Of a stretch of DNA of 63,623 nucleotides, positions 7,405 through 20,854 are shown piece after piece. Under the pieces are notes generated by a model. It worked only from the letters and a program-made list of their open reading frames with translations. It was not told the DNA's origin and did not search any database. Both the position numbers and the translations under genes were made by a program. Each line of letters starts with the position of its first letter. Within the stretch, counting starts at the first letter, position 1. Origin of the DNA: Marinobacter sp. (GTDB lineage Bacteria; Pseudomonadota; Gammaproteobacteria; Pseudomonadales; Oleiphilaceae); assembly GCA_022014155.1 (NCBI GenBank), contig JAKLLS010000004.1:1-63623 (forward strand), written 5' to 3'.

Positions 7405-7445
7405 TGTTGGCACCGTTGTGTTTGTTATCGGTTGCCATGACCTGA

Positions 7446-7460
7446 GCAACGGCTGTGCCA
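7446..7460 (-). promoter_or_regulatory. sigma54 -24/-12 promoter (Po-type) of the dmp operon
   Basis: Minus strand TGGCAC-AGCCG-TTGC, perfect core consensus, about 42 bp upstream of dmpK ATG. Confidence 0.9.
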
Positions 7461-7788: not shown

Positions 7789-9495
7789 ATGGCGATTACC
7801 TATAAACCACAACTGCAGTATGTGGATTTTCAGGATCTTACGGAGCAGATCCGATTCCAGAGCACGGAAGGTAAAATCTGGTTTGGCGAGCAGCGCATGC
7901 TGCTTATGCAGGTCAGTGCCATGGCGGCCTTTCGCCGTGAAATGGTAAATACCATGGGCATTGAGCGAGCGAAGGGCTTTTTCCTGCGACTGGGTTACCA
8001 GTCCGGGCTGAAGGACGCTGAACTGGCCCGCAAGCTGCGTCCCCAATGCAGCGAGCTGGATATTTTTCTCGCGGGCCCGCAATTGCACTCACTCAAGGGA
8101 ATGGTCAAGGTTATTCCCATGGAGATCGACATCGATCACGAGACCGGCAGCTTCTACGGCGAACTCGAATGGGTCGACTCCTTCGAAGTGGATATCTGCC
8201 AGACTGAACTGGGCCAGATGGATGAGCCTGCCTGCTGGTCCCTGCTGGGGTACGCCTGTGCCTACACCTCTTCTTTTATGGGCCGTGAAATTATCTTTCG
8301 TGAGGTCAGTTGCCGAGGTTGTGGTGACGACAAATGCATGATCGTGGGTAAACCCGCAGAAGAATGGGAGGATGCCGCCGAGTTTGCCCAATACTTCAAA
8401 GCAGACACCATCATGGAGGAACTGTACGACCTTCAAAGCCAGATCAGTTCGTTGCGCAGTAGCCTGGAAAAACAGCAGGGCCAGTATTACGGCATCGGGC
8501 AATCCACCTCCTACAACAAGGTCTGCAAAATGATCGATAAGGCCGCACAGGGTAAAGTGTCGGTCCTGTTGCTGGGTGAGACCGGCGTGGGCAAGGAAGT
8601 GATTGCCCGCAGCGTGCACCTTCGCAGCGAACGTGCTGAACAGCCGTTTATCGCCGTGAACTGCGCAGCCATCCCTCCCGACCTGATCGAAGCTGAGCTT
8701 TTCGGTGTTGAGAAGGGGGCCTATACCGGTGCAAACCAGTCACGGTCAGGTCGCTTTGAGCGTGCAAACACTGGCACCATATTTCTTGACGAAGTGGTGG
8801 AACTGACACCCCGGGCCCAGGCGACATTATTGCGAGTATTGCAGGAAGGGGAGCTGGAGCGTGTTGGCGACAACCGTACTCGGGCAGTGGATGTCAGGGT
8901 TATTGCAGCCACCAATGAAAGTCTGGAAAAGGCCGTGGAAGATGGCCGCTTCCGCTCCGACCTGTTTTACCGGCTCAATGTGTTTCCAGTGAAAATTCCA
9001 CCGCTGAGGGAACGGTTGGAAGATTTACCGTTGCTGGTCGAACACTTCCTGAAGAAATTCCATTCAGAGTACAGCAAACGCACGCTTGGCCTTTCAGACA
9101 AAGCCCTTGAACTCTGCCTGCATTACCACTGGCCGGGCAACATCCGGGAGCTGGAAAACGTCATTGAGCGTGGTGTGATCCTGACCGACAACAACGAATC
9201 CATCAGCCGTGAATCTCTGTTTGCAGGCCTACCCGAATCCCAGTCCAACCAGCCCCAGGGCGTTGTCGACAGCCACGGCCAGCTTGTTGAGGAGGCTTGT
9301 GGAGAATCCGGAGGCGATTGGGCCACCCAAATACTCGGGAATGGCATCAGCCTGGACGATGTGGAAGAAATATTGATGCGGCGTGCGATGGAAGAGGCAA
9401 ACCAGAATGTTTCAGGGGCGGCCCGAATACTCGGCCTGACCCGACCTGCACTTGCCTACAGGCTCAAGAAATCCGGCATTCTGACGGAGAGCTAA
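7789..9495 (+). CDS. dmpR: phenol-responsive sigma54-dependent activator (V4R/XylR_N - AAA+ - Fis HTH)
   Basis: N-terminal MAITYKPQLQYVDFQDLTEQIRFQSTEGKIWFGEQRMLLMQ; Walker A GETGVGKEV; GAFTGA loop variant GAYTGA; C-terminal Fis-type HTH; divergent to dmpK. Confidence 0.95.
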   Translation: MAITYKPQLQYVDFQDLTEQIRFQSTEGKIWFGEQRMLLMQVSAMAAFRREMVNTMGIERAKGFFLRLGYQSGLKDAELARKLRPQCSELDIFLAGPQLHSLKGMVKVIPMEIDIDHETGSFYGELEWVDSFEVDICQTELGQMDEPACWSLLGYACAYTSSFMGREIIFREVSCRGCGDDKCMIVGKPAEEWEDAAEFAQYFKADTIMEELYDLQSQISSLRSSLEKQQGQYYGIGQSTSYNKVCKMIDKAAQGKVSVLLLGETGVGKEVIARSVHLRSERAEQPFIAVNCAAIPPDLIEAELFGVEKGAYTGANQSRSGRFERANTGTIFLDEVVELTPRAQATLLRVLQEGELERVGDNRTRAVDVRVIAATNESLEKAVEDGRFRSDLFYRLNVFPVKIPPLRERLEDLPLLVEHFLKKFHSEYSKRTLGLSDKALELCLHYHWPGNIRELENVIERGVILTDNNESISRESLFAGLPESQSNQPQGVVDSHGQLVEEACGESGGDWATQILGNGISLDDVEEILMRRAMEEANQNVSGAARILGLTRPALAYRLKKSGILTES

Positions 9496-9565
9496 ACACC
9501 ATTCTGACAAGGACGTCCCACGCCCCTCATCCCCTTTTCACTATATCAGCAAGCGTCTTTTCCAC

Positions 9566-9581
9566 TTGATCATTTGATAAA
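9566..9581. promoter_or_regulatory. candidate DmpR/XylR-type upstream activating site
   Basis: TTGATCATTTGATAAA; reverse complement TTTATCAAATGATCAA shares ATCAAATGAT with the 7662-7677 element; centred about 121 bp upstream of the -12 element at 9692-9695. Confidence 0.55.
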
Positions 9582-9680
9582 AATCAACCTCTCCAACAAC
9601 GCCTGAAGGCATCAACCCGCCACCTGAAAACACCAGCATTTCCCAGATTTTTCATACAGTTAAAAGCACACCACCGGGTG

Positions 9681-9696
9681 TGGCACACGCGTTGCT
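9681..9696 (+). promoter_or_regulatory. sigma54 -24/-12 promoter upstream of the Ycf48-RND-DUF1302-DUF1329 operon
   Basis: TGGCAC-ACGCG-TTGCT, perfect core consensus, 50 bp upstream of ATG 9746. Confidence 0.8.
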
Positions 9697-9745
9697 AAAT
9701 CACTGTCAGTCGCTTTATCCACAAAAACAAAGACGGTGACATACA

Positions 9746-10735
9746 ATGCGAAATGCCCCCCTGCGCACATGGCGCACCACTGGCAAAGCCGTGTCCCTGG
9801 CAGGACTGTCGTCGCTTCTGATGACGGGCTGCGAAGCCCCCCTGAACCTCGAAGCGGTTCGGGAGCAGTCGCAACAGGCTGTCAAACGGACAGACTTCTA
9901 CCAGGCAATGGCCCGCAACGAAAAGGTTATTGTTCTCGCTGGCAATAACGGCGTTGTGCTGGTGAGTTCCAACAACGGAGAGTCCTGGAGCCGGCAGACG
10001 CCGAGCTCAGACAGCTTCCTGGCACTGGACGTCTGCCCCGACAACAGCTTCATAGCACTGACCTTCGACAACAAAATATGGCACGGCGATGCCAGCGCTG
10101 AAGACTGGACAGCGCACCCCCTGCCCAGCCAGGAGCAGATGATGACTGCGGCCTGTGCCCCCGATGGGAGCTGGTGGGCCGCCGGCAGCTTCACCACCAT
10201 CCAGGGCAGCGCCGATCAGGGTGAGAGCTGGACTGAAACCTCCCTCAACGAGGACGCCATCCTCAACAACCTGCAGTTCGTCGATTCCAGCAAGGCCTTC
10301 GCCACGGGTGAATACGGCCTGGTGCTCACCACCGAAGACGGTGGCGACAACTGGGACTATGCCGGCTACCTGCCGGAGGAGTTCTATGCCCATGCCAGCC
10401 ACTTCCGCTCAGCGGAGGAGGGCTGGGTTGGCGGCCTTAACGGTTTTATCTACCACACCACCGACGGTGGCGAAAGCTGGGAGAAATCCCCCACCGGAAT
10501 CAATGCACCAATCTTCGGGTTTGTGTCCGGCGTCTCCGGTCTATACGCCCTGGCGGATAATGCGACCGTGCTGAGGCACGTCGATCAGTCCTGGCAGAAG
10601 GTTTCCACTTCCGACCAACCCCTGTATTTGCGCAGCGGCCTTTTGCTCACTGATCACCGGCTGCTCGCCGCAGGTGGTCGTGGCCTTCTGCTGAACCTTG
10701 AACTTCCCGCGGCCCTCTCGGCCAGCACTGACTGA
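9746..10735 (+). CDS. Ycf48/BNR-like beta-propeller lipoprotein
   Basis: Lipobox SLLMTGC; repeated GESW, TTEDGGDNWDYAG, TTDGGESWEKSPTG motifs. Confidence 0.82.
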   Translation: MRNAPLRTWRTTGKAVSLAGLSSLLMTGCEAPLNLEAVREQSQQAVKRTDFYQAMARNEKVIVLAGNNGVVLVSSNNGESWSRQTPSSDSFLALDVCPDNSFIALTFDNKIWHGDASAEDWTAHPLPSQEQMMTAACAPDGSWWAAGSFTTIQGSADQGESWTETSLNEDAILNNLQFVDSSKAFATGEYGLVLTTEDGGDNWDYAGYLPEEFYAHASHFRSAEEGWVGGLNGFIYHTTDGGESWEKSPTGINAPIFGFVSGVSGLYALADNATVLRHVDQSWQKVSTSDQPLYLRSGLLLTDHRLLAAGGRGLLLNLELPAALSASTD

Positions 10736-10746
10736 GGAACTCCGCC

Positions 10747-13212
10747 ATGCCTGGACTGCATCGCTTTACCCACCTCCTGCACCAGCTGGAGCTCTGGATT
10801 TTTAACAACCCGCGCAAGGTGTTGAGTGTTCTTGCCATTCTCACTCTGGCATTTGCACTACGCATTCCCGGACTGAAAATCTATACCGATTTTGCCGACC
10901 TTCTGCCGCAACAGCACCCCTACATTGAGCTGCACAACAGCATCAAGGACAGCTTTGGCGGTGCGAATGTTCTTACGGTCGGTATTGAGTTCGACGAAGG
11001 CGACATCTTTACCAATGAGAATCTCGCCAAGATAGACCGGATTACCCAGGCAGTGGACAGCCTCCCCGGGGTCAACCACAACCTGGTGTCGAGCGTGACT
11101 CACCGCAATTCCCGCAAGATCTGGCTGACGGAAGTCGGCAGCATCAACTCGGAGCCCTATTACGACTCCACCTCCGGCGAGTACTCACAGGCAGCACTGG
11201 CTGCCATGAAAGCCGATGTAGCGGCCAATCCACGAGTGTATGGGCCCCTGGTGTCTCCGGACATGAAGATGGCCCTGATCAAGGCGCAGTTGATTGAAGG
11301 CAAGCTGGATTACGAGAAAACGTTTGCACAGCTACAGGCACTGCGCAACACAGAGGAAAGTGTCGGCGTTGAAATCTACGCCACAGGGCAGCCAGTCCTC
11401 GTGGGCTGGGCCTACACCTACATGGAACAGATTCTCCAGATCTTTATTTTCACCGTGCTCACAATGTTGGCCTTGCTCGTTTTCCATTTCCGTAAGGCCT
11501 ACGGCGTTCTGATCCCCCTCGGTGGCGTTATGGTCTCCACGATCTGGGGCCTTGGGATCATCAGCCTGCTCGGCTACAACCTGGATCCACTTGGGCTGGT
11601 GATCCCCTTTTTGATTGCAGCCAGGGCCATGAGCCATGGCGTACAGCTTGTTGAACGCTACTACGCGGAAACCTGCGAATTGGGTAGTGGCCCCAAGGCC
11701 GCGAAAGCCACGTTCGACAGCCTGTTCCGTCCCGGCTCGCTGGGCGTTGTGTCCGATGCTATCGGCCTGTCTCTCATTGCCATTGGCTCCATTCCTCTGA
11801 ACACCCATCTGGGCATCTATGCCTCCCTGTGGGCCATCACCGTGGTATTCACCGTACTCATCGGCGTTCCCCTGCTGTTGTCCATTCTGCCGACGCCCAA
11901 GAACCCCGAGATCCGCGAAACCGCCTTGCGCCATATCGGCGCCAGTTGTTCACGCACGGTTACCCGACCCGGCGCGGCGAAAGTCATTCTGGGCACAGCC
12001 GCCGTTGCGATGGTCGCGGGACTTTTGGCGGCATCCAACGTGCAGATTGGTGACTCGGAGCCGGGCTCGCCCATCCTGTATCCCGATCACGATTACAACA
12101 TCTCGTCACGCATTGTGAACGACCGCTTTCCGGGCTCTGAAGAGCTCTACATCGTGGCGGAAACGGATGAAAAAGGAGGCCTGAAGCGTCCGGAAGTACT
12201 GGCCGCACTGTCAGATCTCCAATCCCATATGCTGCGGGACCCGGAAGTAGGTGGCAGCAAGGGCCTGCCTGATCTGGTCAAACAGGTTAATCGCCTGATG
12301 CACAATGACGACCCCCGCTGGTTCCAGATTCCTCACGATGCGGGCTACGTCGGCGGCCTGATGTTTACCTACATGGCATCCAGCCCGATTCCGGGGGCTC
12401 TCGATGAATTCAACGATACCGACGACCGCGTTGCCAACCTGGTGTTCTATTACAAAGACCGCCAGGGCGAAACCATCCGCCGGGCCATTCATATGGCGAA
12501 GGAATGGATCGCAGAGAATGGTGACAGCGTTGAGGGGCTTACCATCCGGCTCGCCGGTGGGACTCTTGGTGTTGCCGCCGCAATGAACGAATCAGCGTTT
12601 GAGACCAATGTAATCGTTCTGCCGCTGGTTTTTCTGCTGATTTTTGCTTTTGTCATGCTGTTCTACACCTCCCTGCACGCCGGTCTGATGATGCTGTTCG
12701 CGATGCTGTTCGCGACCACTCTCACCTACGCCTACATGGGCCTGAATGCGCTCAACATAGACATCAATACCGTGCCGGTGATTGCTGTCGGTATCGGTGT
12801 CGGCATCGATTACTCCATTTACATGATGGATCGGATCCGGGAGGAAATGGCCCGGCTGGGTAACCTCCGCGATGCCGTCCGACGCGCCATATCCACGACC
12901 GGCATGGCGATCAGTTTCACCGCACTCACACTGATGGCCGGCATCATTATGTGGGTCATCTTTTCAGACCTCCGATTCCAGTCGGATGCGGCATTGCTGC
13001 TGTGCGTCATGATCGTGATCAACGGCATCGCAGCCATGCTCCTTGTGCCCTCCTGGGTGCTGGTATTCAAGCCTCGCTTTGTGACGGATGTCTATGCCGA
13101 TGAAGACGGCATCCTGCATTCAGACAACCGTACGCCTACACCATCCCCATCATCTGCGCCTGAACAGCAAGAGGATGATGGATTCGTGCCGGGAGAGCCG
13201 TACCGGGCCTGA
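10747..13212 (+). CDS. RND-superfamily (MMPL/HpnN-like) transporter
   Basis: 821 aa; multi-TM; IDINTVPVIAVGIGVGIDYSIYMMDRIREE second-half RND motif; long periplasmic loops. Confidence 0.88.
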   Translation: MPGLHRFTHLLHQLELWIFNNPRKVLSVLAILTLAFALRIPGLKIYTDFADLLPQQHPYIELHNSIKDSFGGANVLTVGIEFDEGDIFTNENLAKIDRITQAVDSLPGVNHNLVSSVTHRNSRKIWLTEVGSINSEPYYDSTSGEYSQAALAAMKADVAANPRVYGPLVSPDMKMALIKAQLIEGKLDYEKTFAQLQALRNTEESVGVEIYATGQPVLVGWAYTYMEQILQIFIFTVLTMLALLVFHFRKAYGVLIPLGGVMVSTIWGLGIISLLGYNLDPLGLVIPFLIAARAMSHGVQLVERYYAETCELGSGPKAAKATFDSLFRPGSLGVVSDAIGLSLIAIGSIPLNTHLGIYASLWAITVVFTVLIGVPLLLSILPTPKNPEIRETALRHIGASCSRTVTRPGAAKVILGTAAVAMVAGLLAASNVQIGDSEPGSPILYPDHDYNISSRIVNDRFPGSEELYIVAETDEKGGLKRPEVLAALSDLQSHMLRDPEVGGSKGLPDLVKQVNRLMHNDDPRWFQIPHDAGYVGGLMFTYMASSPIPGALDEFNDTDDRVANLVFYYKDRQGETIRRAIHMAKEWIAENGDSVEGLTIRLAGGTLGVAAAMNESAFETNVIVLPLVFLLIFAFVMLFYTSLHAGLMMLFAMLFATTLTYAYMGLNALNIDINTVPVIAVGIGVGIDYSIYMMDRIREEMARLGNLRDAVRRAISTTGMAISFTALTLMAGIIMWVIFSDLRFQSDAALLLCVMIVINGIAAMLLVPSWVLVFKPRFVTDVYADEDGILHSDNRTPTPSPSSAPEQQEDDGFVPGEPYRA

Positions 13213-13255
13213 AAACCCGGTACGGAACTCCATCAAACCTGTAAGAGGACCTGCC

Positions 13256-15157
13256 ATGCAAACAACAATAAAAGGCCTGCGATTCTGGTGCCTTACCCTC
13301 GCGGGTAGTGCCAGCCTGGCGCTGATTCCCATAACCACGACCGTTGCAGCGGAGACCACCCGCGTCAACGGCTTTGCCGAGAACGCGACGTTTGTCAGGG
13401 ACGACATCGGCCTGTCGAAGTTCCGCAACACCCTACAACTTGAAGCCGAGAAAAGAGCCGGAGACGTCGGCATTTTCAGTAACGTTTCCGTTAATGCGAC
13501 CTTGCGTGGCACCTATGACGGTGTCTATGACCTCAACGATGATGAGTACGGTCGCAATGCCGGCGGCCCGATACAACTGGAGAACCGGGTAGCGGGCCCC
13601 AATGCCACCGTTCCCCATGGCGGTGGTCTGAAACTGCCCAATTCTTTTGATGAAGCCAATAACCCCAACGAAGGCATGATTGTGTTGGGCGAAAACCTTC
13701 ACGATACTGATGGCGGCGTTGGTTTTGGCGTTCCGGTCCGACCCTGTGATAAAGACGACAGGGGCTGTATTGACGGCTATCTGGATAAGGACTCCAATGA
13801 AATGCGGTTCCAGGAGTTCAATGACCGCGCCGACTTTATCCGCGAACTCTATGTGGATTTCGATTACAACTTCGACAATGGCGATATCCTGACGACCCGG
13901 CTGGGCAAACAGCAAGTCGTCTGGGGGCGCACCGACCTGTTCCGGGTTCTGGACGTTATCAACCCGGTGGATTTCTCACGCAACAATATCTATGCCGAAC
14001 TGGAGGACGTCCGGATTCCCATGTGGATTCTGCGGACCGACTACCGGATGGGCCCGACCGAGGTTTTCGACGGCCTCGCGTTTGACGATCTCAATTTCCA
14101 GCTGGTGTGGAACTTCGACAAGTTCCGTCCCCATGACATCGGCCAGTGTGGTCAGCCCAACGTCATCCTTGACGCTGGTTGCTTCTTCCGCGGCATGAAC
14201 AGTCTCTGGGAAAACGGCGGGACCGTGTCCAACTTTGCCAATGGCGAAATAGCCACCGACTTCGGTCCGGGACAAATTGGTATCCGCGAAGCCCACATGC
14301 CCAGCTGGAGCCTGGCGAATACCCAGGTCGGTCTGAAGATGGAAGGTGTCTACGGTGATCTCGGCTTCTCACTGAATGCCCTGACCTATCGCTCCCAGCT
14401 GCCGTCACTTCGGGGTGGAATCCCGGCCCAGAATGGCTTCACCGGCGAAACCGGCGTCTGGCCCAGTCTGATTGCCTTCGACATTCACTTTCCGAGGGTC
14501 AACCTGTTCGGCGGTTCCCTGGACTACTATGCCCAGGGCATCGATACCGTCTTCCGGGTTGAGACCGCCTATACCACCGGTGAGGAGTTTGCCAACACCC
14601 TGGAAGAAGACCTTTATTCTGAAAGCGATGTGGTCCGCTACGTAGTCGGCGCCGACAAGAATATCTTCATCCCCTTCCTCAACGAGCGTCAGGCGTTCCT
14701 GTTCTCGGGACAAATCTTCGGTCAACACATTCTGGAACACGAGCGTGAACAGCGTCTGCTGGGCGAGGCTGGCATGCCGGACTGGGAAGAAAACTGGATC
14801 GGTACTCTGCTGGTCAAAGGCTTTTACATGAACGGCCGCCTCAGCCCGCAGATCATTACCGCCCATGACTTCCGCGCAGGCGCCACTGCCATAGCACCGT
14901 CCATTGAATGGCTGGTCACCGACAACTTCCGCGTGACAGCAGGCGCCAACGTCAAAGTTGGCACCGGCGCACGCAAATTTGATGACTGCCGCACCTGCAA
15001 CCCGTGGGACCCATTCACTGCTGCCTACCCCGGACAGCCAGCCGGAGAATCGGCGGGTCTGGGCGGATATGAGCCACTGGGTCGCTTCCAGTCTGGCCCG
15101 ATCGGTATGGCACAAAAAGAAGACGAAATTCAGCTGACCATGCGTTACAGCTTCTGA
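13256..15157 (+). CDS. DUF1302 family outer-membrane protein
   Basis: Signal peptide MQTTIKGLRFWCLTLAGSASLALIPITTTVAAE; TRLGKQQVVWGRTDLFRVLDVINPVDFSRN; C-terminal aromatic F; start inward of the ORF-track start 13088. Confidence 0.85.
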   Translation: MQTTIKGLRFWCLTLAGSASLALIPITTTVAAETTRVNGFAENATFVRDDIGLSKFRNTLQLEAEKRAGDVGIFSNVSVNATLRGTYDGVYDLNDDEYGRNAGGPIQLENRVAGPNATVPHGGGLKLPNSFDEANNPNEGMIVLGENLHDTDGGVGFGVPVRPCDKDDRGCIDGYLDKDSNEMRFQEFNDRADFIRELYVDFDYNFDNGDILTTRLGKQQVVWGRTDLFRVLDVINPVDFSRNNIYAELEDVRIPMWILRTDYRMGPTEVFDGLAFDDLNFQLVWNFDKFRPHDIGQCGQPNVILDAGCFFRGMNSLWENGGTVSNFANGEIATDFGPGQIGIREAHMPSWSLANTQVGLKMEGVYGDLGFSLNALTYRSQLPSLRGGIPAQNGFTGETGVWPSLIAFDIHFPRVNLFGGSLDYYAQGIDTVFRVETAYTTGEEFANTLEEDLYSESDVVRYVVGADKNIFIPFLNERQAFLFSGQIFGQHILEHEREQRLLGEAGMPDWEENWIGTLLVKGFYMNGRLSPQIITAHDFRAGATAIAPSIEWLVTDNFRVTAGANVKVGTGARKFDDCRTCNPWDPFTAAYPGQPAGESAGLGGYEPLGRFQSGPIGMAQKEDEIQLTMRYSF

Positions 15158-15172
15158 TACAGGGGAAATAAC

Positions 15173-16501
15173 ATGACCAAGAGAACAGACAACACAGTCA
15201 CTCGCTTTCTGGCCGCGGGCCTGACGGCGGGCATCCTCTCTTCCGGTGCCTTTGCCGATGAAGGGATCATCAATCAGTCGTTCCATCCCTACGCGCAGGA
15301 CCTTCCATCCCATGAAGGTCTGAATGCAGGAATGACAATTGATCAATCCAATGTGTCCCAATTCAAGGATATTATTGATCCAGCGTTCTATGGCTTTATC
15401 GAGAACGGTTGGACCTCGATCACCGTTGGAGAAACTACCTCGTTTGATCTGCATCCCGCCTATGTGGACGCAACCCGCAACTCTCTCGGCAACGTTTCCC
15501 TGGGTGACCAGGTCGGTGAAATCAACGGCTGGAAAGCCGGCCGACCGTTCCCGCAGGAACCCGAGGCGGATGACCCGCGCGCCGGGGAAAAACTGGCCTG
15601 GAACTACAAGTACGGCTACAACTGGGGCGACAGTGCCGCTATTTACCCGTTCTACTGGAAGTACCGGGATATGGATTCAGGCAAAGTAGAGCGGACCATC
15701 AAGTTCAACTTCCACTTCCTGAACTACAAGGGCCGGGTGATTCAGGAACCAACACCGGAAATCACCCCCAACCCGTCCGACCTGTTCCGTGCCATCTACG
15801 TTCAGGTGCTGGACCCGGCCGACGTGCGTAATACCCAACTGCTGATCCACCGCGCTGCGGATGACCTCAAGCGGGACAACTCCTGGCTCTATCTGGGCTT
15901 CCAGCGCCGCGTACGCCGCCTGGCGACCGGACAGGTCACCGATGCGTTCCTCGGATCGGACCTGATGATCGAGGACTTTGAGGGCTACAACGGCCGCATC
16001 TCTGATATGGACTGGACCTACAAGGGTACCCGTTACATGTTGATGCCGTTCTACAACCACAACGAACTGGCGCTCGACCAGGAAACCCACAGTGACAGTG
16101 ACGGATACCAGGTGGTGGCGTTCAACGGCCAGGGCGGCTGCTTCCCGGATATTACCTGGCAGCTGCGCAAGGTTTATGAGGTTGAATCCGTGCCCGTCGA
16201 CGAAAGTCATCCACTTTCCAAGCGGGTTCACTACATGGATGCACAGACCTTCACCATTCCCCGCACAGTGTCTTACGACCGCAAGGGCAGCCTGTGGAAG
16301 ACCTTCACTATTGGCCAGGCCCATCCTGACCATCACCTGCCCAAGAACAAGGGCACCGGTGTCTCTATCGACGACAGCTTCAGCATGATCGATGTGCAGG
16401 CCAGCCACTGCACCACCGGCCAGTTCAAGGGCCAGGTTGATCCCGAGCTGTCACGCCCCAGTATGTTCAACGTTCAGCATCTCCGCGCAACCGGCAGTTA
16501 A
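15173..16501 (+). CDS. DUF1329 family (outer membrane lipoprotein-sorting-like) protein
   Basis: 442 aa with signal peptide; RRVRRLATGQVTDAFLGSDLMIEDFEGYNGRISDMDWTYKGTR; follows DUF1302 gene. Confidence 0.85.
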   Translation: MTKRTDNTVTRFLAAGLTAGILSSGAFADEGIINQSFHPYAQDLPSHEGLNAGMTIDQSNVSQFKDIIDPAFYGFIENGWTSITVGETTSFDLHPAYVDATRNSLGNVSLGDQVGEINGWKAGRPFPQEPEADDPRAGEKLAWNYKYGYNWGDSAAIYPFYWKYRDMDSGKVERTIKFNFHFLNYKGRVIQEPTPEITPNPSDLFRAIYVQVLDPADVRNTQLLIHRAADDLKRDNSWLYLGFQRRVRRLATGQVTDAFLGSDLMIEDFEGYNGRISDMDWTYKGTRYMLMPFYNHNELALDQETHSDSDGYQVVAFNGQGGCFPDITWQLRKVYEVESVPVDESHPLSKRVHYMDAQTFTIPRTVSYDRKGSLWKTFTIGQAHPDHHLPKNKGTGVSIDDSFSMIDVQASHCTTGQFKGQVDPELSRPSMFNVQHLRATGS

Positions 16502-16518
16502 GGCTGGTGCTACCCCTT

Positions 16519-16544
16519 GGGCCCGCTTTGCGGGCCCTTTTTTT
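16519..16544 (+). terminator. rho-independent terminator after DUF1329 gene
   Basis: GGGCCCGC-TTT-GCGGGCCC followed by TTTTTTT. Confidence 0.92.
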
Positions 16545-16564
16545 CATTTCGGAGGATGACCAAG

Positions 16565-18172
16565 ATGTCCCAATATGAGCATTTGCCCGACCCCCACCAG
16601 GCAGATGACCAGCTTCTTGTGCTGACCGACAGCAAAGGTGAAATCACCTACGCCAGCATGGCATTCTGCCGGTTGAGCGGTTTTTCTGAGGAGGAACTGA
16701 GAACCGGCTCGTTCAGCAGACTCAGACACCCCGGGATGCCCAAGGGGCCATTCAATGATCTCTGGGAAACCGTTGGCCGTGGCGAATCCTGGATGGGCAT
16801 GATCCGCAACCAGAAGGCCGATGGAACTGACTGGTGGCTAGACGCGTTTATCAGTCCCATTACAGACACCGATGGCACCGTACTTGAATACCAGGCGATT
16901 TACCGGCTACCTGATGCCGACACCATTCGGCGTACCGAACAGGTTTACCAGGCCCGCAGCAAAGGCCGACAGCCGTTGCTCCTGAGAATCCCCAGGTTTG
17001 CTCCAGCCACCCTGCAATGGCTGTCTGCCACCCTCTGTCTGGCCCCGTCTCTGACAGCAGGAATGGCTGGCAGGCCAGAACTGTCCGCCACCCTGTTTGT
17101 CCTGGGTAGCGCCGTTTCTTTTGCCGCCCTTTACGTTTTCAATCGTCCCCTGACACGGCTGTTCTATCGTTGTCGCGGCATAGTGAACCACCCGATCAAG
17201 CAACTGGTCTATACCGGCAATGCCGGTGTGGTGGGTCAGATCGAGCTTGCCATGCGGATGATGGAGGTTCGGCTCGAAGTCATGGTGGCCCGGATTCGCG
17301 ACAGTGGCCGCCAGATTGAAGACAATGTGCTTCGGGCCAACGGCTTGTTGCAGGGAAGTACCGATGCATCCGAACAGCAGCAATTGGCTCTGTCTACCGC
17401 GGCCACATCCATTGAGGAATTCACTGCAACCATCCGGGATGTTTCGGAAAATACCCAGCAGGCAGCTGCCCTCAGCACCCGCAACCGGGAATCCGGAGAG
17501 GACAGCGCCCGCTCTGCCGCAGCCGCCCTGGACAGTATTCACACGCTGGCGCATGAACTGGAGGAATCCAGCCGGATTGTGGCCAGGCTTGACCAGAACA
17601 GTCAGTCTATTGGCCGGATTCTGGATGTGATCGTTGCCATTGCGGAACAGACCAATCTGCTCGCCCTCAACGCAGCCATAGAAGCTGCCCGGGCCGGTGA
17701 AAGCGGGCGCGGATTTGCAGTGGTTGCCGACGAGGTCCGCTCCCTTGCCCAGCGAACCCAGGCATCCACAGACGAGATTCAGGAAATGATTACTGCTCTT
17801 CAGGAAGGCTCCCACCAGGTAGTAGAATCCATCGAAAAGGGCAAACAGCAGTCAGCCATCAGTGTTGAGCAGGTATCGGCCAGCGCCGACGCGATCAGGA
17901 ATATCGTGGCAGGCATCACTGAAAGCGACGGTCTCAATCAGCAGATCGCCGCCGCCAGCGAGCAGCAGAGCCAGACTGTATCGCAGCTTAACGAGGAAGT
18001 TCACGGCATCCATCAGCTTGCCATCAAAACAAGTGGGCAGCTTCTGGATACTGTCAAAGCAGGCGAGGCCGTTGGCTACCATTCAGGCCGACAGCAACTG
18101 GTGATAAGACACATCATGCCAGCCTCCGCCAAAGGCGTTCGCAAGGTGCAACAATGGGAAGACAGTCCATGA
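16565..18172 (+). CDS. PAS-domain methyl-accepting chemotaxis protein (Aer-like)
   Basis: [47 protein letters not shown] hairpin [39 protein letters not shown]; start with GGAGG RBS at 16551. Confidence 0.88.
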
Positions 18173-18763: not shown

Positions 18764-20854
18764 CTAGAGATGGCGCATCAGGGCGCGGATTTGACGGTTG
18801 TCGGGAAACCGCTTCAGCAGTGATTCGGTAATCTCCCTTGCCTTTTCCCTCTCCCCCAACTGGTACAGGGCGACTGCGTAACGATACCCGAACAGCCACT
18901 GGCCGGGTTCAAGCCGTGCGGCCTGTTCCAGGTTCTCCAGGGCGGTGGCATAGTCTTCCAGCTTGAGATTGATCAGCCCCCGGAGATGAATCAGCCTGGC
19001 GTCATCCGCCGATGCCGTCAGTGTTCGGTCAATAACGCGAATGGCTTCGCGATTCCGGCCTCCCGAACGGAGGATCTCTGTCAACTGGATGGCCGCCGGC
19101 ACATAACCACGATCTTTTCCCAGCGCAACGTTCAGTTCCTTCTCAGCCTTGTAGACCATGTCATTTGCCAGAAGGTACCGGGCCTTCAGAACCCGCCCGG
19201 ACGGCAGGTCCGACTGAAGTTCCAGAAAGTGTTCATACTCGTCACGAGTGTTCTTCCAGGCGTCGGAGTCGAGCTTTACGCCCAGCCTTACCAATGTCTC
19301 GAATGCGGCGATGCGTACGGCAAGTTTCGGATCAACAAGCCCCGGCTCCGCCAGCTTGCGAATCGAATCCGGGGCGCCGTGCCGCAACACCCGGTAGCCG
19401 CTTTCGCGGATCACTGCGTGCTCGCTGTGCAGCAACTGTTCCACGACCGGTAACCTGCTTCCAGCCAGTGCCTCGCCCCGTTGTTCCAGCAGCGTTGCAC
19501 GACGAAGTGCTGGCTGACCACTGTCTGTCAGGTAATTCGCCGCCTCTGCCAAACCCCGCTGCTGCACATGGTGCCAGGTATCGGCCTTATAGAGCCCCGG
19601 AGCCCAGTCTTCAACCGTTTCGGCAGACCAGTCACGATCACTGTCAGTGTGGCAACCGAGGCACACATCCGGGCTGCCACTGTCTTTCGCGACATCCGGC
19701 CGGGGCACCATGAAACTGTGCTCGCGGCGATCGTCGATCTTCATGAAGGTGCTTTCCGGCATGTGACAGTTGACGCAGTCAGCCCCTTCACTACCGTCCG
19801 GGTGGTGATGGTGCTCCGGCGTATCGAAATCGCCGGCGTTGTGGCACTGGGCACAGACGGCATTGCCTTCGGCCTTGAGCTTGCCGCTATGGGGATTGTG
19901 GCAGTCGCTGCACACCACGCCGGCCTGGAACATTCTACTCTGCTCGAAAGACCCGAGCACGAACACTTCTTCCCGTACCCGACCATCGGAGTAGTACAGT
20001 GGCTGTTCAAGCCGGCTCAGGCTGAACTGGTCATGAACCTGGCCGCCCTTGTTGTCCGCCAGGCTGGTCCGTAACGAATGGCAGCGCCCACAGGTGGGCA
20101 CTTGGGCATCACTGGAAGCGGGCCCCTGGTGCACTGGTGGGCGCTCCCCTTCGCTGACCAGCCAGGCACCCATAGCTGCCAGATCAACGCCGGCGCCATA
20201 GGAGTTTCCCTGCTTTCTGGCCTCAGCGTGTTCCTGTGCCGTTTCATGGCAGGCACTACAGCTTACGGCAACATGATCCCAGGTGGTGTCATAGGTATCG
20301 CTTTCGGCATCGTAGTTGCGCTCCAGCCCGGTAGAGTGACAATCCGCGCACTGGTTGTTCCAGTTCTGGTAGATGCCGGTCCAGTGCATGGCGTCTCCCG
20401 GGTGACTCTCCCCCGGTTGATCCAGCCGGAACCAACGCTGTCCGCCTTCGGAGGCCTCCCGGGAATCCCAGGCAATATTGAACGCCTGGAGCCTGCCATC
20501 GCCGGTATCAATGAGGTACTGCTGCAGCGGATAGACGCCAAAGGTGTATCGCACTGTCCATTCCTGTGTTTTCCCGGCCTCAGTGGTGCGGATCACGTAA
20601 GTATCGCCATCGCGCATGAACCTGACTTGCACCTGGTCATCGCTGTAGGTGGCACCGGAAAAGTCACCGGATACAGCGTCCGGGCTGGCAGGGGCCATCG
20701 CCGCCGCGTGTTGCGACTTGCTCCATTGTTCAACTTCATCGGCATGACAACCGGCGCAATCTGCCGGCTCCGCCACTACAACAGCGCCCGTCAGTGCCAG
20801 AATAAAGAATACCAACAAGCTCCGGACCGGGTTGATCATATCGTTCAATCTCAT
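18764..20854 (-). CDS. octaheme c-type cytochrome with C-terminal HEAT/TPR repeats
   Basis: Eight CXXCH motifs (CAGCH, CADCH, CSACH, CGRCH, CSDCH, CAQCH, CVNCH, CLGCH); C-terminal TPR-like GLINLKLEDYATALENLEQAARLEPGQWLFGYRYAVALYQLGEREKA. Confidence 0.85.
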   Translation of the reverse strand: MRLNDMINPVRSLLVFFILALTGAVVVAEPADCAGCHADEVEQWSKSQHAAAMAPASPDAVSGDFSGATYSDDQVQVRFMRDGDTYVIRTTEAGKTQEWTVRYTFGVYPLQQYLIDTGDGRLQAFNIAWDSREASEGGQRWFRLDQPGESHPGDAMHWTGIYQNWNNQCADCHSTGLERNYDAESDTYDTTWDHVAVSCSACHETAQEHAEARKQGNSYGAGVDLAAMGAWLVSEGERPPVHQGPASSDAQVPTCGRCHSLRTSLADNKGGQVHDQFSLSRLEQPLYYSDGRVREEVFVLGSFEQSRMFQAGVVCSDCHNPHSGKLKAEGNAVCAQCHNAGDFDTPEHHHHPDGSEGADCVNCHMPESTFMKIDDRREHSFMVPRPDVAKDSGSPDVCLGCHTDSDRDWSAETVEDWAPGLYKADTWHHVQQRGLAEAANYLTDSGQPALRRATLLEQRGEALAGSRLPVVEQLLHSEHAVIRESGYRVLRHGAPDSIRKLAEPGLVDPKLAVRIAAFETLVRLGVKLDSDAWKNTRDEYEHFLELQSDLPSGRVLKARYLLANDMVYKAEKELNVALGKDRGYVPAAIQLTEILRSGGRNREAIRVIDRTLTASADDARLIHLRGLINLKLEDYATALENLEQAARLEPGQWLFGYRYAVALYQLGEREKAREITESLLKRFPDNRQIRALMRHL

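Follow-up and report, generated by a model that had tools for sequence, protein, structure and literature searches.

An Ame-type envelope operon beside dmpR in Marinobacter, a predicted second target of DmpR and sigma54

The envelope operon and its genomic setting

The window, that is, the whole stretch of 63,623 nucleotides (63.6 kb) of Marinobacter sp. that was analysed, carries the gene dmpR at 7789–9495 (+). Its product is a XylR/DmpR-type sigma54 activator with the Pfam domains XylR_N, V4R, Sigma54_activat (AAA+), and HTH_8 (Fis HTH), and it scored 721.6 bits against the NCBIfam MobR model, under the cut-off of 999. It is the sole XylR_N regulator found in the window's genome, which is 82% complete.

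Four genes on the forward strand compose the envelope operon downstream of dmpR. In detail, they encode a YCF48/BNR beta-propeller lipoprotein (AmeC-like; 9746–10735; PSII_BNR, 2.4e-16), an MMPL/HAE3-like RND transporter (AmeD-like; 10747–13212; MMPL, 5.9e-25), a DUF1302 outer-membrane beta-barrel (AmeA-like; 13256–15157; PF06980, 6e-46), and a DUF1329 periplasmic LolA-fold protein (AmeB-like; 15173–16501; PF07044, 1e-76). These domain hits confirm the composition that had been read from the sequence in the original prediction, and all four Ame-type components are thus located in one operon. The start at 13088 given by the ORF finder for the DUF1302 gene is too early, as the orthologues begin at the equivalent of 13256. 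The operon ends at an intrinsic terminator (16519–16544, +), whose strength had also been predicted: the stem-loop at 16519–16537 has eight G-C pairs out of eight and a loop of three, it is followed by T7, and it is the best of the region.

A GCE lipobox is present in the N-termini of the YCF48 orthologues that were inspected. A photosystem-assembly or glycosidase role of this YCF48/BNR protein was ruled out, since its scores are far under the NCBIfam cut-offs. The best NCBIfam model for the RND protein is TIGR00921 (HAE3), with a score of 112.7 that is below the cut-off of 351.9, and its nearest solved relatives by sequence are structures of the lipid exporter MmpL3. Since ARAMSHG occupies the TM4 equivalent but the GxGxDYS of TM10 is conserved, the proton relay of this protein is probably asymmetric. 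The DUF1329 model adopts a LolA fold (mean pLDDT 77) and matches 3bk5, LolA3 of P. gingivalis (9tp6), and the DUF1329 structure 4z48, with E values of about 1e-12. The DUF1302 model is a beta-rich barrel of low confidence (mean pLDDT 63.5), and its fold comparison gave generic porin matches only, with low TM-scores. Neither an HlyD-type adaptor nor a TolC-type outer-membrane factor was found by the domain search of the operon, which rules out a classical HAE1 tripartite efflux pump. Tandem pairs of DUF1329 genes are seen in two pseudomonad loci (L053:14429-17227 and L059:14429-17226).

The gene order dmpP...dmpK <- dmpR -> YCF48-RND-DUF1302-DUF1329 is kept in Marinobacter, Halopseudomonas, Pseudomonas, Stutzerimonas, and Paraglaciecola, with the closest orthologous loci in Marinobacter. 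In Marinobacterium and Neptuniibacter the neighborhood is rearranged, yet the boxes and the promoter described below are mostly retained. One Neptuniibacter genome has the operon twice, with about 20 kb between the copies; the first (L068) has a sigma54 promoter and a phenol hydroxylase, and the second (L087), placed between two distant DmpR-like genes, has no promoter. In Pseudomonas veronii from an aniline site, a conjugative plasmid also carries the operon next to dmp genes, with a perfect -24/-12. Within the window's family, the RND orthologue was found in 30 of 163 genomes, and every one of these 30 also has DmpN, which is present in 42 genomes (Fisher p = 2e-23).

Control sites upstream of the operon and their conservation

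A sigma54 -24/-12 promoter with the sequence TGGCACACGCGTTGCT, a perfect match to TGGCAC-N5-TTGCT, is located at 9681–9696 (+), where it had been predicted, 49 bp (not 50) before the first gene. The window includes one more perfect match, at 7445–7460 (-), where it serves the divergently oriented phenol hydroxylase operon as promoter; 0.11 matches are expected by chance in the 63.6 kb. This expectation, together with conservation in the orthologous loci, rules out a chance origin of the promoter at 9681–9696. An ordinary sigma70 promoter is unsupported: promoter-like sites are fewer than in shuffles, and one weak match (9/12, at 9718–9747) overlaps the leader.

The DmpR/XylR regulon is characterized by paired palindromic boxes of ~16 bp, with centres about 29–42 bp apart and 100–200 bp upstream (PMC6449761), and by a -24/-12, which in the window is the perfect site at 9681–9696. 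Such a pair of boxes is also present in the window. The proximal box, TTGATCATTTGATAAA (9566–9581, +), has one mismatch to TTGATCATTTGATCAA, the AphR motif core given in PMC6449761; this XylR/DmpR-like box of the original prediction is therefore genuine, with its centre ~118 bp upstream of the -12 and not 121 bp. Three further elements had been overlooked. The distal box, TTCACTATATCAGCAA (9537–9552, +), is weak in the window, but it forms a conserved island in an alignment of 16 sequences, where the relatives have TTGATCAAATCAGCAA and similar forms. The centres of the two boxes are 29 bp apart, which is about three helical turns, a spacing known from this group of regulators. An IHF site between boxes and promoter is a further trait of the regulon; in the window an IHF-like site, TTTCATACAGTTA, with two mismatches lies at 9650–9662 (+). 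An A-rich leader motif, ACAAAAACAA, is located at 9721–9730 (+).

A search for the same cluster beside dmpR-type genes with a conserved -24/-12, which had been suggested along with the prediction, was run on 80 collected loci encoding relatives of the transporter, with a few more added from whole-genome searches. The promoter was counted in those 82 loci for which 300 bp or more of upstream sequence was available, allowing at most one mismatch and demanding the invariant GG and GC, and the expected counts were obtained from dinucleotide shuffles. It is found in 64 of the 82 loci (0.5 expected) and is perfect in 46 (0.03 expected), far above chance, although the loci share kinship and the counts of promoters, boxes, and IHF-like sites are therefore non-independent trials. 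Absence of the -24/-12 from orthologous loci, named beforehand as an outcome that would speak against the prediction, is thus contrary to what is observed. The N5 spacers of the conserved promoters differ in 31 distinct forms, and this indicates that selection, rather than just recent ancestry, has kept the promoter.

A DmpR-type box (at most three mismatches) is placed upstream in 62 of the 64 promoter-bearing loci, again far above the 0.65 expected. The boxes are positioned at about -118, -129, -139, -150, and -160, roughly in helical steps, and often form pairs ~30 bp apart. In the alignment of the 16 upstream regions, five islands stand out as conserved, and they correspond to the distal box, the proximal box, the IHF-like site, the -24/-12, and the leader AGTCGCTTTATCCACAAAAACAAAGACGGTGAC. 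The IHF-like site (at most one mismatch) occurs in 55/63 loci against 12.3 expected, in most cases at position -31 relative to the -24, and with the two mismatches of the window copy it provides weaker evidence.

The equivalent of the phenol hydroxylase promoter at 7445–7460 is present in 43 of the 45 loci that have both dmpR and the hydroxylase. The promoter of the envelope operon is similarly associated with these genes, being found in 53/57 loci with the hydroxylase within the stretch read versus 9/19 loci without it (p = 6e-5); in the remaining four of the 57 loci a -24/-12 was not recognisable.

The leader motif of the window fits AANAANAA, which is found in 50 of 63 leaders (7.3 expected), and ACAANAACAA is found in 38 of the 63 (0.2 expected). 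Nearly all loci of Marinobacter and Pseudomonadaceae have the motif, and those of Paraglaciecola and Alteromonas do not. AANAANAA is known as the CA motif of Hfq-Crc targets. A Crc orthologue is encoded in the window's genome (L115); its best PDB match is 4jg3 (Crc) with an E value of 2e-57, versus 4e-11 for exonuclease III of E. coli, and it is flanked by rph and pyrE, relatives of which are seen in the crc loci of Pseudomonas and Marinobacter. A second candidate, L112, was rejected, as it is exonuclease III. The two features looked for in an Hfq-Crc target, the AANAANAA motif close to the start codon and a genome that encodes Crc, are thus both present. Because the leader carries the CA motif and the genome has a Crc orthologue, translational catabolite control of the envelope operon by Hfq-Crc is a reasonable prediction.

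Paralogous clusters and related systems

Further YCF48-RND-DUF1329 clusters are located in the window's genome on contigs C217, C244, C45, and C33 (L119, L120, L121, and L122), with a DUF1302 match at C217 only. The examined stretches upstream of these four paralogous clusters contain no -24/-12. The same holds for the examined upstream stretch of a YCF48-MMPL-DUF1302-DUF1329 set on plasmid 2 of Aromatoleum aromaticum EbN1 (L118:7987-14493), which is placed within a cluster resembling fatty-acid/beta-oxidation genes. The idea that all relatives are controlled by sigma54 is thus not borne out in the upstream stretches examined.

The closest likeness in gene content is AmeABCD of Castellaniella defragrans, which consists of a DUF1302 outer-membrane protein, a LolA-type DUF1329 protein, a COG4447/YCF48 protein, and an HAE3-like RND protein, and is also found among catabolic genes (PMC6394551). 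The order A-B-C-D of ameABCD is circularly permuted in the window to C-D-A-B (YCF48-RND-DUF1302-DUF1329), and because of this difference the window operon is named Ame-type and not AmeABCD. Moreover, AmeABCD neighbors monoterpene genes and the window operon phenol genes, and the latter differs in its sigma54/DmpR-type promoter and in a first gene that encodes a lipoprotein.

The original statement that no description links this system to phenol catabolism was wrong. Suvorova and Gelfand (2019) predicted that in Burkholderia sp. 383 a COG4447-COG1033-PF07044-DUF1302 set is controlled by AphR, a member of the DmpR family, and proposed a role of such operons in toxic-aromatics or solvent stress (PMC6449761). 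In Zoogloea oleivorans, DUF1302-DUF1329 genes share a neighborhood with those for phenol hydroxylase and for a sigma54 regulator (PMC7012976), and in benzene-degrading Desulfobacterota a similar cluster occurs in abundance (PMC13101534). The machine itself and the notion of its control by phenol regulators are consequently already described in related bacteria. The operons of PMC6449761 belong to Betaproteobacteria and include one AphR case, whereas the type described here extends over many genera of Gammaproteobacteria with a conserved promoter, paired boxes, and leader. The present analysis adds to these descriptions by showing how broad and strong the DmpR/sigma54 link is in Gammaproteobacteria, and by the paired boxes, the leader motif, the co-occurrence with the hydroxylase, and the copy on a plasmid; the operon is ordinary in kind, with unusually strong comparative support.

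Predicted regulation and possible function

The envelope operon is very probably controlled by DmpR and sigma54, as a predicted second target of this regulator. This is favored by the conserved promoter, the paired boxes and IHF-like sites, the adjacency to dmpR and dmp genes, the plasmid copy, and the co-occurrence of the RND gene with the hydroxylase, as well as by the four paralogous clusters of the same genome, which show no -24/-12 in the stretches examined. A precedent for one XylR-type regulator serving a catabolic and an efflux cluster is EtpR of A. aromaticum EbN1. This sigma54 regulator is encoded between the two clusters and is required for the expression of both the catabolic genes and the adjacent 6.5-kb efflux cluster (PMC4630880); the comparison refers to regulation and not to efflux gene content, and, unlike the window with its phenol hydroxylase, EtpR serves the anaerobic p-ethylphenol pathway.

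It is highly improbable that the promoter is real but that expression is set by another sigma54 activator or by a further regulator, repressing or activating, of the AphS/AphT type. The gene set is predicted to be under AphS and AphT, besides AphR, elsewhere in Betaproteobacteria (PMC6449761), and dmpR is not nearby in some loci; on the other hand, the boxes of 62/64 loci fit the DmpR/AphR motif and the window's genome, as far as its 82% completeness goes, offers a single XylR_N protein. With the conserved control sites, the operon beside dmpR, and this single regulator, the regulatory part of the original prediction is supported. As to function, that prediction had named import, export, or lipid remodelling, and these possibilities are weighed below.

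Control by DmpR would operate as follows. Phenol-bound DmpR would bind the paired boxes at 9537–9581, IHF would bend the DNA between them and the promoter, and sigma54-RNAP at 9681–9696 would initiate transcription at about 9707. Where Crc is active, Hfq-Crc may repress translation through the A-rich leader as long as better carbon sources are present. The proton-driven MMPL/RND protein of the inner membrane would then pass a hydrophobic molecule, either the aromatic itself or a lipid that it has displaced or damaged, to DUF1329, the carrier with the LolA fold. The assembly would be kept together by the YCF48-type lipoprotein, and the DUF1302 barrel would form its outer-membrane end. The envelope would thereby be protected during growth on phenols. 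A trans-envelope machine is favored by the LolA fold, the barrel model, the lipobox, and the retained Asp-Tyr of TM10. The complete reading, a phenol-inducible Ame-type trans-envelope RND system under DmpR and sigma54 that forms a second arm of the dmp regulon, is considered somewhat better than an even guess. Against it count the low confidence of the DUF1302 model, the four hydroxylase loci in which the -24/-12 is not recognisable, and the nine loci with the promoter but with no hydroxylase in the stretch read.

As to the main role, export or protection is slightly favored, because deletion of ameABCD lowered monoterpene tolerance and increased the influx of Nile Red (PMC6394551), and an outward direction seems more likely than an inward one. 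Two considerations weigh against it. Since phenol dissolves quite well in water, the need for a dedicated efflux conduit is not obvious, and in P. putida the relatives of the barrel and the carrier, PP_0765/PP_0766, are necessary together with PP_2018/PP_2019 for the use of Tween 20, a result with which uptake or lipid handling agrees at least equally well (PMC10866462). In that system, too, DUF1302 and DUF1329 proteins have a periplasmic protein and a transporter of the RND type as partners, but the genes form two separate loci that are not linked to phenol, in place of one operon.

The same DmpR control could serve an inward route, in which barrel, lipoprotein, LolA-fold carrier, and RND protein aid the uptake of phenols or of more hydrophobic inducers, for example, alkylphenols. 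Besides the Tween 20 phenotype, this agrees with the co-occurrence of the RND gene with catabolic genes and with the poorer growth on phenanthrene after deletion of a DUF1329 gene in Delftia, as cited in PMC13101534. Uptake is nevertheless considered unlikely, given that the characterized MMPL/HAE3 proteins are exporters, that the ameABCD phenotype is a reduced tolerance with more dye entering, and that phenol passes membranes unaided.

A membrane lipid could alternatively be the substrate, with the DmpR-controlled system moving or recycling lipids between the inner and outer membrane in order to restore the envelope under phenol stress. The modelled LolA fold of DUF1329, which is that of a lipid or lipoprotein carrier, the relationship of the RND protein to MmpL3, and the many paralogues in a genome with one dmpR are in line with such traffic. 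For the window's orthologue, on the contrary, the link is specific to aromatic-degradation genes, and lipid traffic as the main task appears improbable compared with the preferred export or protection.

A wider and rather doubtful extension would make two arms of the DmpR regulon obligatory in marine Gammaproteobacteria and Pseudomonadaceae, namely the phenol catabolic operon and a dedicated trans-envelope conduit for lipids or hydrophobes that is under the same boxes and a Crc-sensitive leader. Phenol catabolism might then depend on an inducible envelope-repair/transport machine that the classical dmp model overlooked.

DUF1302, DUF1329, and RND partners recur beside terpene, aromatic, and fatty-acid catabolic genes without a settled function. 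The window system combines a predicted inducer, regulator, and promoter with a well-studied catabolic neighbor, and direction, substrate, and benefit are therefore cleanly testable in it. For DmpR, a model regulator mostly studied at one promoter, a second conserved target is suggested, which may matter for phenol clean-up strains and for DmpR-based biosensors.

Two further genes lie beyond the terminator. A methyl-accepting chemotaxis protein with a PAS domain is encoded at 16556–18172 and is kept downstream in many loci of Marinobacter and Pseudomonas (e.g., L018, L025, L026, L045, L050, and L058), which suggests chemotaxis towards the same aromatics; a chemotaxis transducer is also included in the operon of the same set in Azoarcus BH72 (PMC6449761). 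At 18764–20854 (-), beside the phenol locus, a large protein is encoded that combines multiheme CXXCH cytochrome motifs with a TPR region at its C-terminus.
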